From assembly GCF_900091625.1 (NCBI RefSeq), contig NZ_FMIC01000002.1, forward strand, positions 5,456,001-5,520,000: a DNA stretch of 64,000 nucleotides, read 5' to 3'. The notes under the pieces are model-generated. The model worked only from the letters and a program-made list of their open reading frames with translations, did not search any database and had not been told where the DNA came from. A program made the translations under genes and the position numbers. This document shows, piece after piece, positions 2,583-46,341 of this stretch. Source of the DNA: Micromonospora peucetia. GTDB taxonomy: Bacteria > Actinomycetota > Actinomycetes > Mycobacteriales > Micromonosporaceae. The first letter of the stretch is position 1; the number at the start of each line of letters is the position of its first letter.

Positions 2583-3668
2583 GTGAGCCAGCAGGTCAGG
2601 GGAGTCATCTCCCGCAGCAAGGGCGCGCCGGTCGAGGTGACCACGATCGTGCTGCCGGATCCGGGTCCGGGCGAGGCGATCGTGCGGATCCAGTCCTGCG
2701 GGGTCTGCCACACCGACCTGCACTACCGGGAGGGCGGCATCAACGACGACTACCCGTTCCTGCTCGGGCACGAGGCGGCCGGTGTGGTCGAGCAGGTCGG
2801 GCAGGGGGTGGACGCCGTCGCGCCGGGCGACTTCGTGGTGCTCAACTGGCGGGCTGTCTGCGGGGTGTGCCGGGCCTGCCGCCGGGGCCGGCCGTGGTAC
2901 TGCTTCGCCACCCACAACGCGGCGCAGAAGATGACCCTCACCGACGGCACCGAGCTCACGCCGGCGCTGGGCATCGGCGCCTTCGCGGAGAAGACCCTGG
3001 TCCACGCCGGTCAGTGCACCAAGGTCGACCCGGCGGCCCGGCCCGCCGCCGTCGGGCTGCTCGGCTGCGGCGTGATGGCCGGTCTCGGCGCCGCCATGAA
3101 CACCGGCGGGGTCACCCGGGGTGACTCGGTGGCCGTGATCGGCTGTGGCGGTGTCGGCGACGCGGCCGTCGCCGGCGCCGCGCTGGCCGGCGCGACGACG
3201 ATCATCGCGGTGGACACCGACCCCCGCAAGCTCGACTGGGCGCGCAAGTTCGGCGCCACCCACACGGTCAACGCCAGGCAGGACGACCCGGTCGAGGCGA
3301 TCCGCGCCGCCACCGGCGGCTTCGGCGCCGACGTGGTGATCGACGCGGTCGGCCGCCCCGAAACCTGGAAGCAGGCCTTCTACGCCCGCGACCTGGCCGG
3401 CACCGTCGTGCTGGTCGGCGTGCCGACCCCGGAGATGACCGTCGACGTGCCGCTGCTCGACGTCTTCGGCCGCGGCGGCTCGCTGAAGTCGAGCTGGTAC
3501 GGCGACTGCCTGCCCAGCCGGGACTTCCCGATGCTCACCGAGCTCTACCTGCAGGGCCGGCTCGACCTCGACGCCTTCGTCACCGAGGAGATCGCCCTGG
3601 ACCAGGTCGAGGAGGCGTTCGCCCGGATGCACCGCGGCGACGTGCTGCGTTCGGTGGTGGTCCTGTGA
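2583..3668 (+). CDS. mscR: S-(hydroxymethyl)mycothiol dehydrogenase
   Basis: This zinc-dependent medium-chain dehydrogenase has 361 residues. The catalytic zinc ligands are Cys39 (SCGVCH) and His63 (GHE). The structural zinc lobe is Cys93, Cys96, Cys99 and Cys107. A Rossmann motif ([12 protein letters not shown]) lies near residue 180. The family oxidises the spontaneous adduct of formaldehyde and mycothiol with NAD, giving S-formylmycothiol and then formate; the substrate cannot be proved from motifs alone. The GTG start follows AGGAGG by 4 nt. The next gene, an MBL hydrolase, overlaps by GTGA, the arrangement seen for this enzyme in other actinobacteria. The formate produced could feed the formate dehydrogenase encoded 16 kb away. 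Confidence 0.88.
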
Positions 3669-18849: not shown

Positions 18850-18863
18850 TATGTTCAGGGGTG
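18850..18863 (+). promoter_or_regulatory. -10-like TATGTT directly before the formate dehydrogenase GTG
   Basis: TATGTT ends 5 nt before the GTG at 18861, a leaderless-type arrangement seen several times in the window. It supports that GTG as start. No clear -35 box is present. Confidence 0.35.
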
Positions 18864-21800
18864 GCGACGTCGGACGGGTCGGGAGAGGGGGTGTCGCGGG
18901 TGGGCCTGCGGACCTTCATCCAGGGCTGGCCGGTCTATCGGCAACTCACCGGCACCGACCCGCTGGGCCGGGGCACCGCGGCGCAGTCCACCCGCTCGGC
19001 GGAGTTGACCGCCCGCACCGAGACCGCCGACAGCGTGGCCCGCTCGGTCTGTCCCTACTGCGCGGTCGGCTGCGGCCAGCGCGTCTTCGTCAAGGACAAC
19101 GAGGTCGTCCAGATCGAGGGCGATCCGGACAGCCCGATCTCCCGGGGCCGGCTGTGCCCGAAGGGGTCGGCAAGCAAGAGCCTGGTCACCAGCCCGCTGC
19201 GGCAGACGAAGGTCCGCTACCGGCGGCCCTACGCCACCGACTGGGAGGATCTGGACCTCGACGTCGCGCTCGACATGATCGCCGACCGGATCCTCGCCGC
19301 CCGCGCGGAGACCTGGGAGGACGTCGACGCGCAGGGCCGGCCGCTCAACCGCACGCTGGGCATCTCCAGCCTGGGCGGGGCGACGCTGGACAACGAGGAG
19401 AACTACCTCATCAAGAAGCTGTTCACGGCGATGGGGGCGCTCCAGATCGAGAACCAGGCGCGCATTTGACACTCCGCCACCGTCCCCGGTCTGGGGCCAG
19501 CTTCGGTCGCGGTGGCGCGACGGATTTCCAACAGGACGTCGCCAACGCTGACGTCATCGTGATCCAGGGCTCGAACATGGCCGAGGCCCACCCGGTGGGC
19601 TTCCAGTGGGTGATGGAGGCCAAGCGGCGCGGCGCCAGGGTGTTCCACGTCGACCCGCGGTTCACCCGCACCAGCGCGCTGGCCGACAGCTACCTGCCGA
19701 TCCGGGCGGGCTCCGACATCGCGCTGCTCGGTGGCGTGGTGCGCTACATCCTGGAGAACGAGCTCGACTTCCGGGAGTACGTGCTGGCCTACACCAACGC
19801 CGCGACGATCGTCAGCGATCGGTTCGTCGACACCGAGGACGGCGACGGCTTCTTCTCCGGCTTCGACCCGGAGACGGGCAGCTACGTCCAGGACTCCTGG
19901 CAGTACGCGGGCCACGAGTCGGACTCCGGCAGCGGGCACACCGCGCAGGAGCGGGACACCGCAGCCGGGCTGCGCCACGAATCGCACGGCGCGCAGGTGG
20001 GCGGTCAGACCGAGCGGGACGAGACGTTGCAGCACCCGCGCTGCGTCTACCAGATCCTCAAGCGGCACTTCGCCCGCTACACGCCGGAGATGGTGGAGCG
20101 GGTCTGCGGCATCCCGCAGGAGAAGTTCCTGGAACTCGCCCAGGCCTGGACACAGAACTCGGGCCGGGAGCGTACCGGCGTGCTGATCTACTCCGTCGGG
20201 TGGACGCAGCACAGCGTCGGCGTGCAGTACATCCGCACCGGCGCGATCATCCAGCTGCTGCTGGGCAACATGGGCCGTCCCGGCGGGGGCATCCTGGCGC
20301 TGCGCGGGCACGCCAGCATCCAGGGCTCCACCGACATCCCGACGCTGTTCAACCTGCTCCCCGGCTATCTGCCGATGCCGCACCACGCCGACCACCCCAC
20401 CTTCGACGAGTGGGTGGACAGCATCCGCCACCCGGGCCAGAAGGGCTTCTGGGGCAACGCCCGCGCCTATGCGGCGAGCCTGCTGAAGGCGTACTGGGGG
20501 GACGCGGCGACGCCGGAGAACGACTTCTGCTACGGCTACCTGCCCCGGATGACCGGCGACCACGGGACGTACCAACAGGTGTTGAACATGATCGACGGGA
20601 AGGTGCGGGGTTACTTCCTGCTCGGTCAGAACCCGGCGGTCGGGTCGGCGCACGGCCGGGCACAGCGCCTCGGCATGGCCAACCTGGACTGGCTGGTGGT
20701 CCGCGACCTGTTCATGATCGAGAGCGCCACGTTCTGGCGCAACGGTCCCGAGGTCGCCACCGGCGAGATCGTGCCGGCCGAGTGCCGGACCGAGGTGTTC
20801 TTCCTGCCGGCCGCCTCGCACGTGGAGAAGGACGGCACCTTCACCCAGACCCAGCGGCTGCTCCAGTGGCGGGAGAAGGCCGTCGACCCGCCGGGCGACG
20901 CCCGCTCCGAACTGTGGTTCTTCTACCACCTCGGGCTCCGGCTGCGGGAGAAACTGGCCGGCTCCGACCTGCCACGCGACCGGGCGCTGCTCGACCTGGC
21001 CTGGGACTACCCCACGCACGGCCCGCACGCGGAGCCGAGCGCCGACGCGGTGCTGCGCGAGATCAACGGGTACGAGGTGGCGACCGGTCGCCCGCTGTCC
21101 ACGTTCGCCGAGGCCCGCGACGACGGTTCCACCGCCGTCGGCTGTTGGATCTACTCCGGGGTGTACGCCGACGGCGTCAACCAGGCGGCCCGGCGCAAGT
21201 CCCGGCACGAGCAGGACTGGGTGGCCGCCGAGTGGGGCTGGGCGTGGCCAGCGAACCGGCGCATCCTCTACAACCGGGCCTCCGCCGACCCGCAGGGCCG
21301 GCCGTGGAGCGAGCGCAAGCGCTACGTCTGGTGGGATCCGGACGCCGGGGAGTGGACCGGCTACGACGTGCCGGACTTCGAGCGGACCAAGCCGCCGACG
21401 TACCGGCCGCCGCGGGGCGCGTCCGGTCCGGAGGGGATCGCCGGTGACGACCCGTTCGTCATGCAGGGCGACGGCAAGGGCTGGCTGTACGCGCCCAGCG
21501 GGGTGCTCGACGGACCCCTGCCGACGCACTACGAGCCGGCCGAGTCGCCGGTGCGCAACCCGTTCTACCGGCAGCAGGCCAACCCGACCCGCAAGGTGTA
21601 CGCGCACCCGGTGAACTCGGTGAACCCGAGCCCACCGCAGGAGCACAGCCAGGTGTTCCCGTACGTGTTCACGGTCAGCCGGCTCACCGAGCACCACACG
21701 GCGGGCGGGATGAGCCGTACGGTGCGGCCGCTGGCGGAGTTGCAACCGGAGATGTTCGTCGAGGTGTCGCCGGAGTTGGCCGCCCAGGTGGGCCTGGCGC

Positions 21801-22180
21801 ACCTGGGCTGGGCGCATCTCGTCAGCGGGCGGGCGGTGATCGAGGCGAAGGTGCTGGTAACCGACCGGCTCACCCCGCTGCGGGTGGACGGCCGGGTGAT
21901 CCACCAGCTGTGGCTGCCGTACCACTTCGGGTTCGAGGGCCTGGTGACGGGCGACTCGGCCAACGACCTGTTCGGGATCACCCTGGACCCGAACGTGCTG
22001 ATCCAGGAGAGCAAGATCGGTACCTGTGACGTGCGCCCGGGGCGGCGGCCCACCGGCCCGGCCCTGCTGGACCTGGTGGCCGACTACCAGCGGCGGGCGG
22101 GCATCGTCCCCGGCCGTTCGGCCCCGACGATCACTCCCGGGGCGGCACCGCCCCCACGGACGACGCCGGGGAGGGCCGTG
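18861..22180 (+). CDS. fdhG: Formate dehydrogenase, selenocysteine-containing molybdopterin alpha subunit (frameshifted in this sequence)
   Basis: This is the catalytic subunit that oxidises formate at a molybdenum/tungsten bis-MGD centre. An N-terminal [4Fe-4S] site (Cys64, Cys67, Cys71 in CPYCAVGC, then RLCPKG) is followed by codon 203, an in-frame TGA at 19467 in the context NQARI-U-HSATV. This is the position of selenocysteine in FdhF/FdnG. A 1-nt deletion in the G run 19493-19496 moves the frame; restoring one G gives the expected GLGASFGRGG. The rest reads through to the beta subunit without a stop. Downstream blocks include IVIQGSNMAEAHPVGFQW, RAGSDIALLGG and the C-terminal molydopterin-binding region ending near LVADYQRR. 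I see no twin-arginine signal. GTG at 18900 is an alternative start. Confidence 0.85.
19467..19498 (+). promoter_or_regulatory. SECIS-like element at the selenocysteine UGA
   Basis: The UGA at 19467-19469 is followed, after 18 nt, by a hairpin with stem CCCC/GGGG (19484-19487 with 19493-19496) and apical loop GGTCT (19488-19492). The loop sequence and the 18-nt distance match what I remember of the E. coli fdhF SECIS. Adding the missing G in the 3' arm would extend the stem to six pairs (GTCCCC with GGGGGC). Confidence 0.75.
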
Positions 22181-23131
22181 ATGCTTCCTGACCCGAACAG
22201 CCTGTCCGGGCCGTTGGATCCCGCCCCGGACGCCGGCTGGACCGACGCCCCGCCCCGGATGGGTTTCTTCACCGACACCAGCGTCTGCATCGGCTGCAAG
22301 GCGTGCGAGGTGGCCTGCAAGGAGTGGAACGACGTCCCCGGTTCGGGGCTGGACCTGCTCGGCATGTCGTACGACAACACCGGCGCGTTGACCGCGAACT
22401 CGTGGCGGCACGTGGCGTTCGTCGAGCAGCCCCGCCCGGCCGGACACCGCACGCCACCGTTCGCCGGCACCCCGACGGGCGGGCGGAGCGCCACCGGACC
22501 GGAGTTCCTGGGAATGCCCGGGGCACAGCCGCCGGGGCGTGGTGGCGACGCGCAGGGTCGCACCGACTTCCGCTGGCTGATGATGTCCGACGTCTGCAAG
22601 CACTGCACCCACGCGGCCTGCCTCGACGTCTGCCCCACCGGCTCGCTGTTCCGCACCGAGTTCGGCACGGTGGTGGTGCAGGAGGACATCTGCAACGGCT
22701 GCGGCTACTGCATCTCCGCCTGCCCGTACGGCGTCATCGACCAGCGCAAGGGTGACGGCCGGGCGTGGAAGTGCACGCTGTGCTACGACCGGATCGGTGT
22801 CGGGCAGACCCCCGCCTGCGCGCAGGCCTGCCCCACCGAGTCCATCCAGTACGGCCCCCTCGACGAGCTGCGGGAGCGGGCCGCGGCCCGGGTGGCGACG
22901 CTGCACGAGCGGGGCGTGCCCGAGGCGCGGCTCTACGGGCACGACCCGGACGACGGGGTCGGTGGCGACGGCGCGTTCTTCCTGCTGCTCGACGAGCCTG
23001 AGGTGTACGGGCTGCCCCCGGACCCGGTGGTCACCACCCGGGACCTGCCGAAGATGTGGAAGCGGGCCGGCCTGGCCGCCCTGGCCATGACGGCGGCGGC
23101 CGTGGCGGCGTTCGTGGGAGGTTCCTCATGA
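22181..23131 (+). CDS. Formate dehydrogenase iron-sulfur (beta) subunit
   Basis: From the ATG preceded by GGGGAGGG, this 316-residue protein has four cysteine clusters typical of FdnH/HybA-type 4Fe-4S ferredoxin subunits: CIGCKACEVACKEW, CKHCTHAACLDVCPTG, CNGCGYCISACPYG and CTLCYDRIG...ACAQACPTES. It carries electrons from the alpha subunit to the membrane partner. A single hydrophobic segment near the C-terminus (LAALAMTAAAVAAFVGG) could anchor it. The reading frame is open back into the alpha subunit with no stop, so either the two are fused or this ATG re-initiates. The stop overlaps the next ATG (ATGA). Confidence 0.85.
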   Translation: MLPDPNSLSGPLDPAPDAGWTDAPPRMGFFTDTSVCIGCKACEVACKEWNDVPGSGLDLLGMSYDNTGALTANSWRHVAFVEQPRPAGHRTPPFAGTPTGGRSATGPEFLGMPGAQPPGRGGDAQGRTDFRWLMMSDVCKHCTHAACLDVCPTGSLFRTEFGTVVVQEDICNGCGYCISACPYGVIDQRKGDGRAWKCTLCYDRIGVGQTPACAQACPTESIQYGPLDELRERAAARVATLHERGVPEARLYGHDPDDGVGGDGAFFLLLDEPEVYGLPPDPVVTTRDLPKMWKRAGLAALAMTAAAVAAFVGGSS

Positions 23132-24117
23132 GTTCGGACCGGCGGGGCAGGCGGCGGCGCGGCGGCGAGGAGTTGACCGTCCCGGAGGCCGAGTTCACCT
23201 CCTACTACGGCCGGCCGATCCTCAAGGCGCCGGTCTGGAAGTGGGACATCGCCGCTTACCTGTTCACCGGCGGGCTGGCCGCCGGTTCGTCGCTGCTCGC
23301 GGCGGGCGGGCAGCTCACCGGCCGGCCCGCGCTGCGCCGGGCCGGCCGGGTCACCTCGCTGGCGGCGGTCACCGCCAGCACCGTCTTCCTGATCAGGGAT
23401 CTGGGCCGGCCCGCCCGGTTCCACCACATGCTGCGGGTGGCCAAACCCACCTCGCCGATGTCCGTGGGCACCTGGATCCTCAGCGCGTTCGGCCCGGCCG
23501 CCGGGATCGCGGCGGTCGCCGAGGGCGCGTCGTTGCTGCCCGAGCGCGGTCTGCCGGGGCTCGTCCGCCGGGCGCTGCCGTCGGTCGGACACGCCGCCGG
23601 GTTGGCCGCCGCGGCGACGGCGCCGGCGCTGGCCACGTACACCGGGGTGCTGCTCGCCGGCACGGCCGTGCCGTCCTGGCACGAGGCGTACCCGGAGCTG
23701 CCGACCATCTTCGCGGGCAGCGCGCTGGCCAGCGGCGCCGGTGTGGGACTGATCGCCGCGCCCACCGCGCAGGCCGGGCCCGCCCGCCGGATGGCGGTGG
23801 CCGGCGCGGCCCTGGAGCTGTACGGCTCGCACCGCGTGGAGACCCGGCTCGGGCTGCTCAGCGAGCCCTACCGCACCGGGCACGCCGGTCGGCTGCTGCG
23901 CGTCGGGCGGGCGCTGACCGCGGTGGGGGTGGCCGGCGCGCTGCTGGGCCGGCGCAGCCGGACGCTCTCCGCGCTGTCCGGGGCGGCCCTGCTGGGCGCG
24001 TCGGTGGCGACCCGGTTCGGCATCTTCCACGGCGGTGTCGCCTCGGCGAAGGATCCGAAGTACACGGTGGTGCCGCAGCGGGAGCGCCTCGAGCGGCGGC
24101 GTGCCGACGCGGGTTGA
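23128..24117 (+). CDS. nrfD: NrfD/PsrC-type polysulfide-reductase-like membrane subunit
   Basis: The 329-residue product has a basic N-terminus (RRGRRRRGGEE), the segment YYGRPILKAPVWKWDIAAYLFTGG, typical of NrfD proteins, and about eight hydrophobic helices. NrfD proteins pass electrons between an FeS subunit and the quinone pool without heme. It is translationally coupled to the beta subunit by an ATGA overlap, so it should be the membrane anchor of this formate dehydrogenase, taking the place of a cytochrome b gamma subunit. The upstream in-frame ATG at 23056 lies within the beta gene and is not needed. Confidence 0.82.
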   Translation: MSSDRRGRRRRGGEELTVPEAEFTSYYGRPILKAPVWKWDIAAYLFTGGLAAGSSLLAAGGQLTGRPALRRAGRVTSLAAVTASTVFLIRDLGRPARFHHMLRVAKPTSPMSVGTWILSAFGPAAGIAAVAEGASLLPERGLPGLVRRALPSVGHAAGLAAAATAPALATYTGVLLAGTAVPSWHEAYPELPTIFAGSALASGAGVGLIAAPTAQAGPARRMAVAGAALELYGSHRVETRLGLLSEPYRTGHAGRLLRVGRALTAVGVAGALLGRRSRTLSALSGAALLGASVATRFGIFHGGVASAKDPKYTVVPQRERLERRRADAG

Positions 24118-24163: not shown

Positions 24164-24259
24164 GGAGGCGTTCAGTGGGCTGGTGCCCCTCCCGGTCTTC
24201 AAAACCGGTGTGGTCCGGGATCCGGGCCAGGCGGGTTCGATTCCCGTCCGTCTCCGCCA
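24164..24259 (+). tRNA. selC: tRNA-Sec, anticodon UCA
   Basis: The 96-nt gene folds as a long class II tRNA. The anticodon stem CCGGT/ACCGG carries the loop CTTCAAA with anticodon TCA at 24199-24201, which reads UGA. The acceptor stem pairs GGAGGCG with the 3' strand (one G-U pair), giving an eight-position stem whose innermost pair is mismatched. The variable arm is very long and GC-rich (about 24209-24230). The T arm is GCGGG-TTCGATT-CCCGT. The discriminator G and CCA are encoded. It lies 46 nt after the NrfD gene and 19 nt before selA. Confidence 0.9.
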
Positions 24260-24278: not shown

Positions 24279-25583
24279 ATGGGGGACGTCGCGGCCGATC
24301 CGCGCCGGCGGGTGCCACGCACCGACACGCTGCTCGCCGATCCCCGGTTGGCCGCCGCGACGACCACCCTGGGCCGGGAACGGGTCAAGGCCGCCGTCCA
24401 CCGCGCGCAGGAGCAGGCCCGTCGGGGCGAGATCACCCCCGAGGCGGTACCCGACGCCGCGCTGGCCGCCCTGCCCGCGCTGACGCCCCGGGCGGTGCTC
24501 AACGCGACCGGGGTGGTGCTGCACACCAACCTGGGCCGGGCCGCGCTGTCGCCGGCCGCTGTCGCGGCGGTCACCGCCGCCGCCGGACACACCGACGTCG
24601 AGCTGGACCTGGGCACCGGGCGGCGGGCCCGGCGTGGACGCGACGCCCTGGACGCCCTCGCCGCCGCGGTGCCCGACGCGGGCGCGGTGCACGTGGTCAA
24701 CAACGGCGCCGCCGCGCTGGTGCTCGCCGCCACCGCGCTGGCCGCCGACGCCGAGATCGTCGTCAGCCGGGGCGAGCTGGTGGAGATCGGCGACGGGTTC
24801 CGCCTGCCCGACCTGCTGGCGAGCACCGGCGCCCGGCTGCGCGAGGTCGGCACCACCAACCGCACCACGCTCGACGACTACGCCGCCGCCCTCGGCCCCC
24901 GGACCGGCTTCGTGCTGAAGGTGCACCCGTCGAACTTCCAGGTCACCGGCTTCACCTCGGCGGTGCCCGTGCGGCGGCTGGCCGGCCTCGGTGTCCCCGT
25001 GGTCGCCGACATCGGCTCCGGGCTGCTCACGCCCGACCCGCTGCTGCCCGCCGAGCCCGACGCCGCCGGCACCCTGCGGGCCGGGGCGGCGCTGGTCACC
25101 GCCAGCGGCGACAAGCTGCTCGGCGGCCCGCAGGCCGGGCTGCTGCTCGGCGCCGCCGACCTGGTCGACCGGCTGCGCCGGCACCCGCTGGCCCGGGCGT
25201 TGCGGGTGGACAAGCTGACCCTCGCCGCGCTCGCCGCCACCCTAGGCGACCCGGCCACCCCCACCCGGGCCGCGCTGCACGCCGACCCGGGCGTGCTGCG
25301 GGCCCGCACCGAGCGGCTGCGCGACGCCCTCGCCGCCGACGGCTGCAAGGCGGAGGTGGTGCCGGCCAGCGCGGTCGTCGGTGGCGGCGGGGCACCCGGC
25401 GTGGAGTTGGACTCGTGGGCGCTCAGCCTGCCCGAGCGGTACGCCCGGCCGCTGCGCGTCGGCGACCCGCCGGTGCTCGGCCGGGTGGTGCGCGGACGAC
25501 TGCTGCTGGACCTGCGTTGTATGCCCGCCGACGCCGACGCGACGGTCCGCGCCGCCGTGCTGCGCGTGCCCGGGGAGGGCTGA
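24279..25583 (+). CDS. selA: L-seryl-tRNA(Sec) selenium transferase
   Basis: This PLP enzyme of 434 residues converts Ser-tRNA(Sec) to Sec-tRNA(Sec) using selenophosphate. The N-terminal RVPRTDTLLADPRL, the motif NATGVVLHTNLGRA near residue 75, the block VNNGAAALVLAATALA and the PLP lysine Lys279 in ASGDKLLGGPQAG are all typical. Length fits the bacterial family. The ATG has GGAAGAGGGG upstream. It sits between tRNA-Sec and selB and, together with the UGA-containing formate dehydrogenase gene, forms a compact module. selD, needed to make selenophosphate, is not in this window. Confidence 0.93.
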   Translation: MGDVAADPRRRVPRTDTLLADPRLAAATTTLGRERVKAAVHRAQEQARRGEITPEAVPDAALAALPALTPRAVLNATGVVLHTNLGRAALSPAAVAAVTAAAGHTDVELDLGTGRRARRGRDALDALAAAVPDAGAVHVVNNGAAALVLAATALAADAEIVVSRGELVEIGDGFRLPDLLASTGARLREVGTTNRTTLDDYAAALGPRTGFVLKVHPSNFQVTGFTSAVPVRRLAGLGVPVVADIGSGLLTPDPLLPAEPDAAGTLRAGAALVTASGDKLLGGPQAGLLLGAADLVDRLRRHPLARALRVDKLTLAALAATLGDPATPTRAALHADPGVLRARTERLRDALAADGCKAEVVPASAVVGGGGAPGVELDSWALSLPERYARPLRVGDPPVLGRVVRGRLLLDLRCMPADADATVRAAVLRVPGEG

Positions 25584-25585
25584 GC

Positions 25586-27394
25586 GTGTTCGTGGTGGCC
25601 ACCGCCGGGCACGTCGACCACGGCAAGTCGACTCTGGTGCGGGCGTTGACCGGGATGGAACCCGACCGGTGGGCCGAGGAACGCCGCCGGGGCATGACCA
25701 TCGACCTCGGTTTCGCCTGGACCACGCTGCCCTCCGGCGCGACGGTCGCGTTCGTCGACGTGCCCGGCCACGAGCGGTTCGTACCGAACATGCTCGCCGG
25801 CGTCGGCCCGGTGCCCGCCGCGCTGGTCGTGGTGGCCGCCGACGAGGGCTGGATGCCGCAGTCGGCCGAGCACCTGGCCGCGTTGGACGCGCTCGGGGTG
25901 TCGTACGGCCTGCTGGTGGTGACCCGCGCGGACCTGGCGGACCCGGGGCCGGCGATGGCCCGGGCCCGCTCGGAGCTGGCCGCCACCTCCCTCGGCGCCC
26001 TCGACGCGGTCGCGGTCAGCGCGGTCACCGGGGCCGGCCTGCCGCAGCTGCGGGCGGCCCTGGACCGGCTCGCCGTCCGGCTGCCCGCACCGCAGGCCGA
26101 CGCCCCGGTGCGGCTCTGGGTGGATCGCGCCTTCACCGTCCGGGGCGCCGGCACCGTGGTCACCGGCACCCTCGGCGCCGGCCGGCTGCGTGTCGGCGAC
26201 GAGCTGGAACTCGCCGGTGCGCAGCCGGTGCGGGTACGCGGCCTGCACTGCCTCGGCGTGGCCCGGTCCGAGGCCGCCGCGGTCGCCCGGGTGGCGGTGA
26301 ACCTGCGCGGCACGCCCCGGGACCGCATCGGGCGCGGCGACGCGCTGCTCACCCCCGGCCGGTTCCACCGCACGGACCTGCTGGACGTCCGGCTGGCCGG
26401 CGACCCGACGGCGCAGCTGCCGGCCACCCTGACCCTGCACATCGGCTCGGCGGCGGTTCCGGTGCGGGTCCGGCCACTCGGCCCGGACACCGCCCGGCTG
26501 CGGCTGGCCCGGCCGCTGCCGCTGCTGGTCGGGGACCGGGCACTGCTGCGTGACCCGGGCCGGCACCACGTCGCCGGCGGCGTGACCGTGCTGGACGTCG
26601 CGCCGCCGCCGCTGACCCGCCGGGGCGCGGCGGCGGCCCGCGCCGCAGTGCTGGCGACGGTGGACGGCCGCCCCGACCTGGCCGGCGAGCTGCGCCGACG
26701 GCGGCTGGCCCGGGCCGCCGACCTGGTCCGCACCGGCGTCGAGATCACCGGCCAGCCGGTCGCCGGCGACTGGCTGGCCGACCCGGAGCACTGGCGGGGC
26801 CTCGGCGCCCGGCTGGTCGACGAGGTCGCCCGGCACGCCCGGGAGCACCCCCTCGAGTCGGGCGCGCCGGTCGAGCTGCTCCGCCAGCGCCTCGACCTGC
26901 CCGAGCGTGCGCTGGTCGAGGCGCTGGTCCGGCCACCCCTGCGGCTGTATGCCGGCCGGGTCACCGCGTCGGCGGCCGACGCGCTGCCGGAACCGGTGGC
27001 CCGTGCCGTGGCCCGGGTCCGCGCCGGCTACGCCGGCCGCCCGTTTCGGGCACCCGAGGCCGAGCACCTCGCCGAGCTGGGGCTGGGCCCCCGGGAGATC
27101 GGGGCGGCCGTGCGCGCGGGAGCGCTGCTGCGGCTCGCCGAGAACGTGGTGCTGCTGCCCGGCGCGGCCGACGACGCCGTGCGGGTGCTGGTCGGGCTGC
27201 CGCAGCCGTTCACGCTCAGCGCCGCCCGGCGGGCGCTGGACACCACCCGCCGGGTCGCGGTGCCGCTGCTGGAACTTCTGGACCGCCGGGGTGTCACCCG
27301 GCGGTTGCCCGACGACGCCCGGATCGTGGTCGACCGGACGGTCGGGTCGCGGCCGGCGGACGAACCCGGCGACCCGGTCCCGGCCCGGCGCTGA
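25586..27394 (+). CDS. selB: Selenocysteine-specific elongation factor
   Basis: This 602-residue GTPase delivers Sec-tRNA(Sec) to UGA and binds the SECIS hairpin through its C-terminal winged helices. Residues 8-16 are the P-loop GHVDHGKST, the G3 motif DVPGHERF is at 58-65 and the G4 motif is TRAD. Beta-barrel domains 2 and 3 follow, then a long C-terminal region with repeated winged-helix-like segments (about residues 340-600). The GTG start is two bases after the selA stop, with GGGGAGGG inside the selA end as Shine-Dalgarno. Length matches E. coli SelB (614). Confidence 0.93.
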   Translation: MFVVATAGHVDHGKSTLVRALTGMEPDRWAEERRRGMTIDLGFAWTTLPSGATVAFVDVPGHERFVPNMLAGVGPVPAALVVVAADEGWMPQSAEHLAALDALGVSYGLLVVTRADLADPGPAMARARSELAATSLGALDAVAVSAVTGAGLPQLRAALDRLAVRLPAPQADAPVRLWVDRAFTVRGAGTVVTGTLGAGRLRVGDELELAGAQPVRVRGLHCLGVARSEAAAVARVAVNLRGTPRDRIGRGDALLTPGRFHRTDLLDVRLAGDPTAQLPATLTLHIGSAAVPVRVRPLGPDTARLRLARPLPLLVGDRALLRDPGRHHVAGGVTVLDVAPPPLTRRGAAAARAAVLATVDGRPDLAGELRRRRLARAADLVRTGVEITGQPVAGDWLADPEHWRGLGARLVDEVARHAREHPLESGAPVELLRQRLDLPERALVEALVRPPLRLYAGRVTASAADALPEPVARAVARVRAGYAGRPFRAPEAEHLAELGLGPREIGAAVRAGALLRLAENVVLLPGAADDAVRVLVGLPQPFTLSAARRALDTTRRVAVPLLELLDRRGVTRRLPDDARIVVDRTVGSRPADEPGDPVPARR

Positions 27395-46155: not shown

Positions 46156-46172
46156 TGACCATGCCGGTAGTA

Positions 46173-46263
46173 CCCACGTGGGAGAGACCGCCCAGCAGCA
46201 TCTCAGGCGGCGCCGAAGGGGCAAATCCTCCCCGGAACCTCTCAGGCAAAAGGACCTCGTGGG
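46173..46263 (+). promoter_or_regulatory. Glycine riboswitch upstream of gcvP
   Basis: P1 is CCCACG (46173-46178) with CGTGGG (46258-46263). Between them are GGGAGAGACC, GCCGAAGGGGCAAA and CTCTCAGGCAAAAGGACC, matching the glycine aptamer consensus. Only one aptamer is clearly seen. A second CCCACG at 46324-46329 next to the GGGAG ribosome site can pair with the same P1 strand, suggesting a glycine-ON switch. A hairpin CGACAG/CTGTCG sits in between. Confidence 0.88.
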
Positions 46264-46341
46264 CAGGCACTGTGGAGCGCCTCGCGGGTGCGACAGAGGG
46301 GGAGGCCGACCTGTCGACCTCGCCCCACGGGAGCGCCGCCC

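Follow-up and report, generated by a model that had tools for sequence, protein, structure and literature searches.

The fdhA gene of a selenocysteine formate dehydrogenase in the Micromonospora genome studied here lacks one base behind its selenocysteine codon, which we consider, with a probability of roughly 0.6, to be an error of sequencing or assembly, the locus in the cell itself being intact. The window analysed is a stretch of 64,000 nt (G000:C2:5456001-5520000, G000 being the handle of this genome) from a genome of 7.37 Mb in two contigs. As sequenced, fdhA would give about 233 residues instead of some 1,110, and the whole enzyme could not be made from it. The initial annotation had overlooked the frame break and had taken the locus as direct evidence for a selenoprotein formate dehydrogenase in this organism. 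The family, the selenocysteine codon, the hairpin and the machinery are supported, but the locus is no direct evidence that this strain makes a selenoprotein, because the gene, with one base missing and its frame ending at 19560, gives only the short product. The result is mostly a correction, and until the missing base has been checked, citing this copy as an expressed selenoprotein would be unwarranted.

The cluster itself is an ordinary actinobacterial selenocysteine formate dehydrogenase set in the order fdhA-fdhB-nrfD-tRNA-Sec-selA-selB, with all features on the forward strand. The 5' part of fdhA (18861..19466, 202 codons before the UGA from a predicted GTG start) carries the Fe4S4 domain (PF04879, 65.6 bits) and scores 335.1 bits against the actinobacterial formate dehydrogenase alpha family NF041513 (formate_DH_Act), and the 3' part (19497..22180), read in the -1 frame, exceeds the cut-off of that family (1400) on its own with 1560.7 bits. 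Scanned apart, the two pieces score 126.6 and 768.3 bits with TIGR01553 (FDH-N alpha; threshold 814.2 bits). Downstream follow fdhB for the 4Fe-4S beta subunit (22181..23131; Fer4_11, and TIGR01582 with 188.8 bits, below the cut-off of 334.7), an NrfD-like membrane subunit (23128..24117; PF03916, 75.3 bits), and, close together as had been annotated, tRNA-Sec with anticodon TCA (24164..24259), selA (24279..25583; TIGR00474, 403.2 bits) and selB (25586..27394; TIGR00475, 272.1 bits), the starts of both sel genes being set by eye. Each of fdhB, nrfD, selA and selB has an open frame, and tRNA-Sec is intact. With selD located elsewhere in the genome, far from the cluster (379.8 bits, cut-off 125), the full set of tRNA-Sec, SelA, SelB and SelD is present, and fdhD is likewise encoded elsewhere (153.5 bits, cut-off 140.9). 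A tRNA-Sec was found in 13 of 24 relative loci scanned, ten times downstream of fdhA on the same strand as here. Neither a DNA search nor a protein search at E <= 1e-100, in which two candidates were scored, turned up another fdhA copy in this genome. Two copies, both with TGA, occur in Micromonospora sp. U21 (L005, L031), M. foliorum (L009, L033) and M. noduli (L012, L034); no tRNA-Sec was detected in the scanned loci of the second type (L031, L033, L034), nor in the similar loci L035 and L040.

Selenocysteine formate dehydrogenases are already known from actinobacteria, and the locus described here is an ordinary member of the family in a disrupted copy. Both parts of fdhA match NF041513, whereas the single continuous frame of that family (the UGA apart) is interrupted here by the deletion of one base, and the stop of alpha is missing. 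FdhA and SelD are described as the most widespread bacterial selenoproteins in the accessible parts of two papers (PMC1794560, PMC5029168). In Actinomycetospora chiangmaiensis DSM 45062, the accessible text of PMC7176365 reports a membrane-bound FDH1 cluster with a selenocysteine-containing alpha subunit, beta and gamma subunits, SelA and SelB, where formate removal needed added selenite and the alpha subunit of 1,078 residues was detected in the proteome. The cluster described here is alike as far as that text goes, but its alpha gene is broken as sequenced. For Streptomyces incarnatus NRRL8089, a selenocysteine FDH-O with an in-frame UGA directly followed by the SECIS and with sel genes nearby is reported in the portion of PMC4498112 at hand; selD lies in the cluster there and far away here. 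Searches of titles and the beginnings of abstracts, with the subscription literature mostly outside their reach, returned nothing on point for selenocysteine in Micromonospora, and one on selenoproteins with frameshifts and homopolymers led nowhere.

The selenocysteine codon is the TGA at 19467-19469 in the context NQARI-U-HSATV, codon 203 if the GTG at 18861 is taken as the first, exactly as first annotated; E. coli fdhF and fdnG likewise have TGA at this site. We read the codon in 111 relatives, made up of 80 named loci (the best 23 of which all carry a Micromonospora label), 29 further loci of the genus, L117 and L118. A cysteine or sense codon in close relatives had been named in advance as the observation that would speak against selenocysteine. 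None was seen: all 111 have TGA, each followed by 600 or more codons without a stop (a measure limited by 29 loci that end after 610 codons) and with conserved protein on both sides. Such constancy indicates that the site is conserved beyond chance, and selenocysteine at this position is the ancestral state and an ordinary one among actinobacteria. A DNA match to fdhA was present in 141 of 151 Micromonospora genomes sampled (two of them weak, G043 and G048) and absent from ten, and no cysteine version occurred among the genus loci read. In a sample of the class, 109 of 394 genomes gave a match at E <= 1e-100, most of those listed with one in-frame TGA, and the codon itself was read in 40 of the 109. 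The 20 loci of the best class matches, one of them from this genome, all have TGA, and 20 loci fetched for showing no stop or TAG have TGC (18), TGT (1) and TAG (1). Cysteine versions therefore exist, 19 of these 20 chosen distant loci, at about 58-64% identity, having a cysteine codon. The locus with TAG (L209, G547:C7:181600-185900), from a genome of the same order, retains the GGTCT hairpin, and the same genome possesses a tRNA-Sec with a CTA anticodon (L257, around G547:C6:102862-102953), which ARAGORN labels tRNA-Pyl. Selenocysteine encoded by UAG has already been reported in Geodermatophilaceae, according to the accessible part of PMC5330540.

Bacterial selenoprotein genes carry a SECIS hairpin just behind the UGA, with a loop that bears G and U, and the E. 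coli fdhF SECIS has a bulged U. Here, an apical SECIS-like hairpin (19482..19498) consists of the 5' arm GUCCCC, the loop GGUCU (19488-19492) and a 3' arm, with five of six pairs remaining. The loop starts 18 nt after the UGA, as had been stated for E. coli fdhF and as we counted by eye in the K-12 gene; the UGA site and the 18-nt distance are common to FdhF and FdnG, the FdhF loop is identical and the fdnG loop reads AGTCT. GGTCT is present in 52 of the 53 distinct 54-nt sequences collected, with E. coli fdnG as the exception. In an alignment of 51 relatives from which this genome was left out, the six pairs GUNCCC/GGGNRY are kept in every sequence (126 of 126 cells over 21 distinct 33-nt rows), which, together with the loop and its distance, supports the annotated hairpin. 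The stem of these relatives has six continuous pairs, whereas the bulged U of fdhF has no clear counterpart. The covariation score of 0.266 exceeded that of shuffled alignments (0.132, sd 0.022; reached by 0 of 500) and of slid ones (at most 0.076), but it comes from one pair alone that joins two third codon positions, and 402 of 500 shuffles had at least as many pairs with changes on both sides. Free folding did not single out the hairpin (z between 0.64 and -1.51 over eight folds), and the stem was the best structure in only one of five 54-nt folds. The element in this genome is thus a hairpin that follows the UGA directly and bears G and U in its loop, one pair short and without significance in free folding: the missing base turns the fifth stem pair into U-C, the sole non-pair at that position among 52 sequences, and the local hairpin energy is -7.4 kcal/mol compared with -11.1 and -11.7 in two relatives.

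The frame break lies at 19493..19496, about 24 nt past the UGA, where GGTCT is followed by GGGGCC with one base fewer between the loop and CC than in the relatives. All 111 relatives share a single length at this point, with GGGGACC in 65, GGGGGCC in 33, GGGAACC in eight and five other forms that occur once or more, and none has the one-base-short form. An exact-pattern search for the 20-nt variant returned only this genome among 160 of the genus. Against G126, the alignment has a clean one-base gap with 20 identical flanking bases on either side, and since the nearest relatives, G126 and C31 (Micromonospora sp. C31), both have five G at the site, the loss of one G is the simplest reading. Frame 0 ends at the TGA 19560..19562, 30 codons after the selenocysteine codon. 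Third-position GC in the four tiles preceding the site is 0.94-1.00 in frame 0, and from 19611 to 23060 it is 0.88-1.00 in the -1 frame, the shift of frame falling within tile 19461-19610; the real fdhA therefore continues in the -1 frame, which stays open past the break and on into fdhB. In the ancestral gene, the UGA would be decoded by SelB and Sec-tRNA, aided by the hairpin behind it, and the molybdopterin alpha subunit, to judge from its family, would then bear selenocysteine at the active site. Because the 3' arm of the hairpin is one base short in this assembly, most simply by a G from the G5 run of the nearest relatives, a ribosome passing the UGA would stop at 19560 after about 233 residues.

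A further difference lies at the end of the gene. In the alpha-beta linker (22133..22180), a variable stretch, L003 and G126 have a net 7 nt more than this genome (from the alignment, the length difference being read by eye); the difference removes the alpha stop here, and the alpha frame passes straight into beta at 22181. In aligned relatives the stop codon of alpha abuts or overlaps the beta start, and alpha ends 870-961 codons after the UGA in 80 of 82 relatives. One of the 82, L026, reaches its contig end without an alpha stop, and none of the 81 in which a stop is reached has an alpha-beta fusion. The fdhA of the remaining one, L075 (Micromonospora tarensis contig_406, a fragmented draft), has a frame break of its own elsewhere in the gene: the TGA is kept, the frame stops at 3043 (codon 714) and the protein match continues in another frame.

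Whether the base is missing from the cell or only from the assembly can be weighed by the state of the gene and the quality of the surrounding sequence. Error is favoured over a very recent mutation because of the purifying selection on the 3' part, the intact selenocysteine kit and the location in a G run, G runs being a common site of sequencing and assembly errors. In the fdhA 3' part on the G000 branch, the changed codons (13 nonsynonymous, 55 synonymous) give a per-site ratio of 0.078, compared with 0.107 for G126 and 0.124 for C31, based on the best tblastn segment per relative only. The pattern of substitutions thus suggests purifying selection on this part, with no relaxation evident on the G000 branch. 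The 5' part, with three nonsynonymous and four synonymous changes (ratio 0.260), has too few to judge selection, and the somewhat higher selB ratio on this branch (0.217 vs 0.143 and 0.177) should not be over-read. A long-standing pseudogene was rejected in view of these selected-looking 3' substitutions and the stop-free -1 frame into fdhB. A real and very recent deletion, by which the strain would have just lost its selenocysteine formate dehydrogenase and retained the kit, perhaps without another client, is the less probable of the two readings; it has against it the lack of relaxed selection in the 3' part, the open fdhB, nrfD, selA and selB, and the intact tRNA-Sec, and in its favour the absence of a second fdhA copy and the second frame-changing difference in the linker that no relative with an alpha stop shares. 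It is nevertheless quite possible because the assembly is otherwise clean, with few coding indels in its aligned part and no overall homopolymer bias. Measured against one relative (G126) as the yardstick, 458,799 aligned columns, of which 2,972 of 5,003 tiles (about 267 kb) were coding-like, held two indels that break G000, namely the fdhA site and one doubtful site, and three that break G126, the search covering places where both flanks align cleanly and so missing divergent ones such as the linker near 22133-22180. Likewise, G/C runs in G000 were shorter than in G126 in 31 cases, longer in 31 and the same in 2,637, and in view of this overall match a general homopolymer fault of the assembly was rejected. 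Inside the window, 10 runs were shorter, six longer and 452 the same, with p 0.38 (shorter vs longer) and p 0.051 (shorter vs same) for window against outside, in tests that were chosen after seeing the data. The flank-aligned search for coding indels replaced a gene-level tblastn screen for frameshifts, which gave eight and nine candidates, many of them near ORF ends because ORFs had been taken from stop to stop. Should the deletion be real, this strain would show a selenoprotein caught in its loss ahead of the decay of the selenocysteine machinery.

Two further explanations leave the assembled sequence as it is and take the reading of the gene to differ. A double recoding, with UGA read as selenocysteine and a -1 slip about 24 nt on near the shortened G run in the hairpin, would yield an alpha-beta fusion and would agree with a -1 frame that is open and conserved over the rest of the gene and with a break that sits inside the hairpin. 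We regard it as very improbable, given that all 111 relatives cross the site in one frame and need no slip, that a canonical slippery heptamer is absent from the site by eye, and that only 1 of 160 genomes has the variant; the last of these, with the single frame of the relatives, led us to reject a programmed frameshift across the genus. Even more remote is the idea of a genuine termination codon at the UGA, with an independent small gene upstream of it; no positive evidence speaks for this, apart from the hairpin not being singled out by free folding. The TGA with conserved protein on either side in all 111 relatives, the cysteine at the same site in 19 of the 20 distant loci fetched and the adjoining selenocysteine machinery all stand against it. 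An error of sequencing or assembly over an intact gene remains our preferred reading.

In the comparison of the two genomes, G126:C1 probably carries a broken frame too, at eight consecutive G opposite G000:C2:5573532, where G000 reads GGGGCGG. Within the window, a glycine riboswitch aptamer was detected at 46169-46267 (68 bits).
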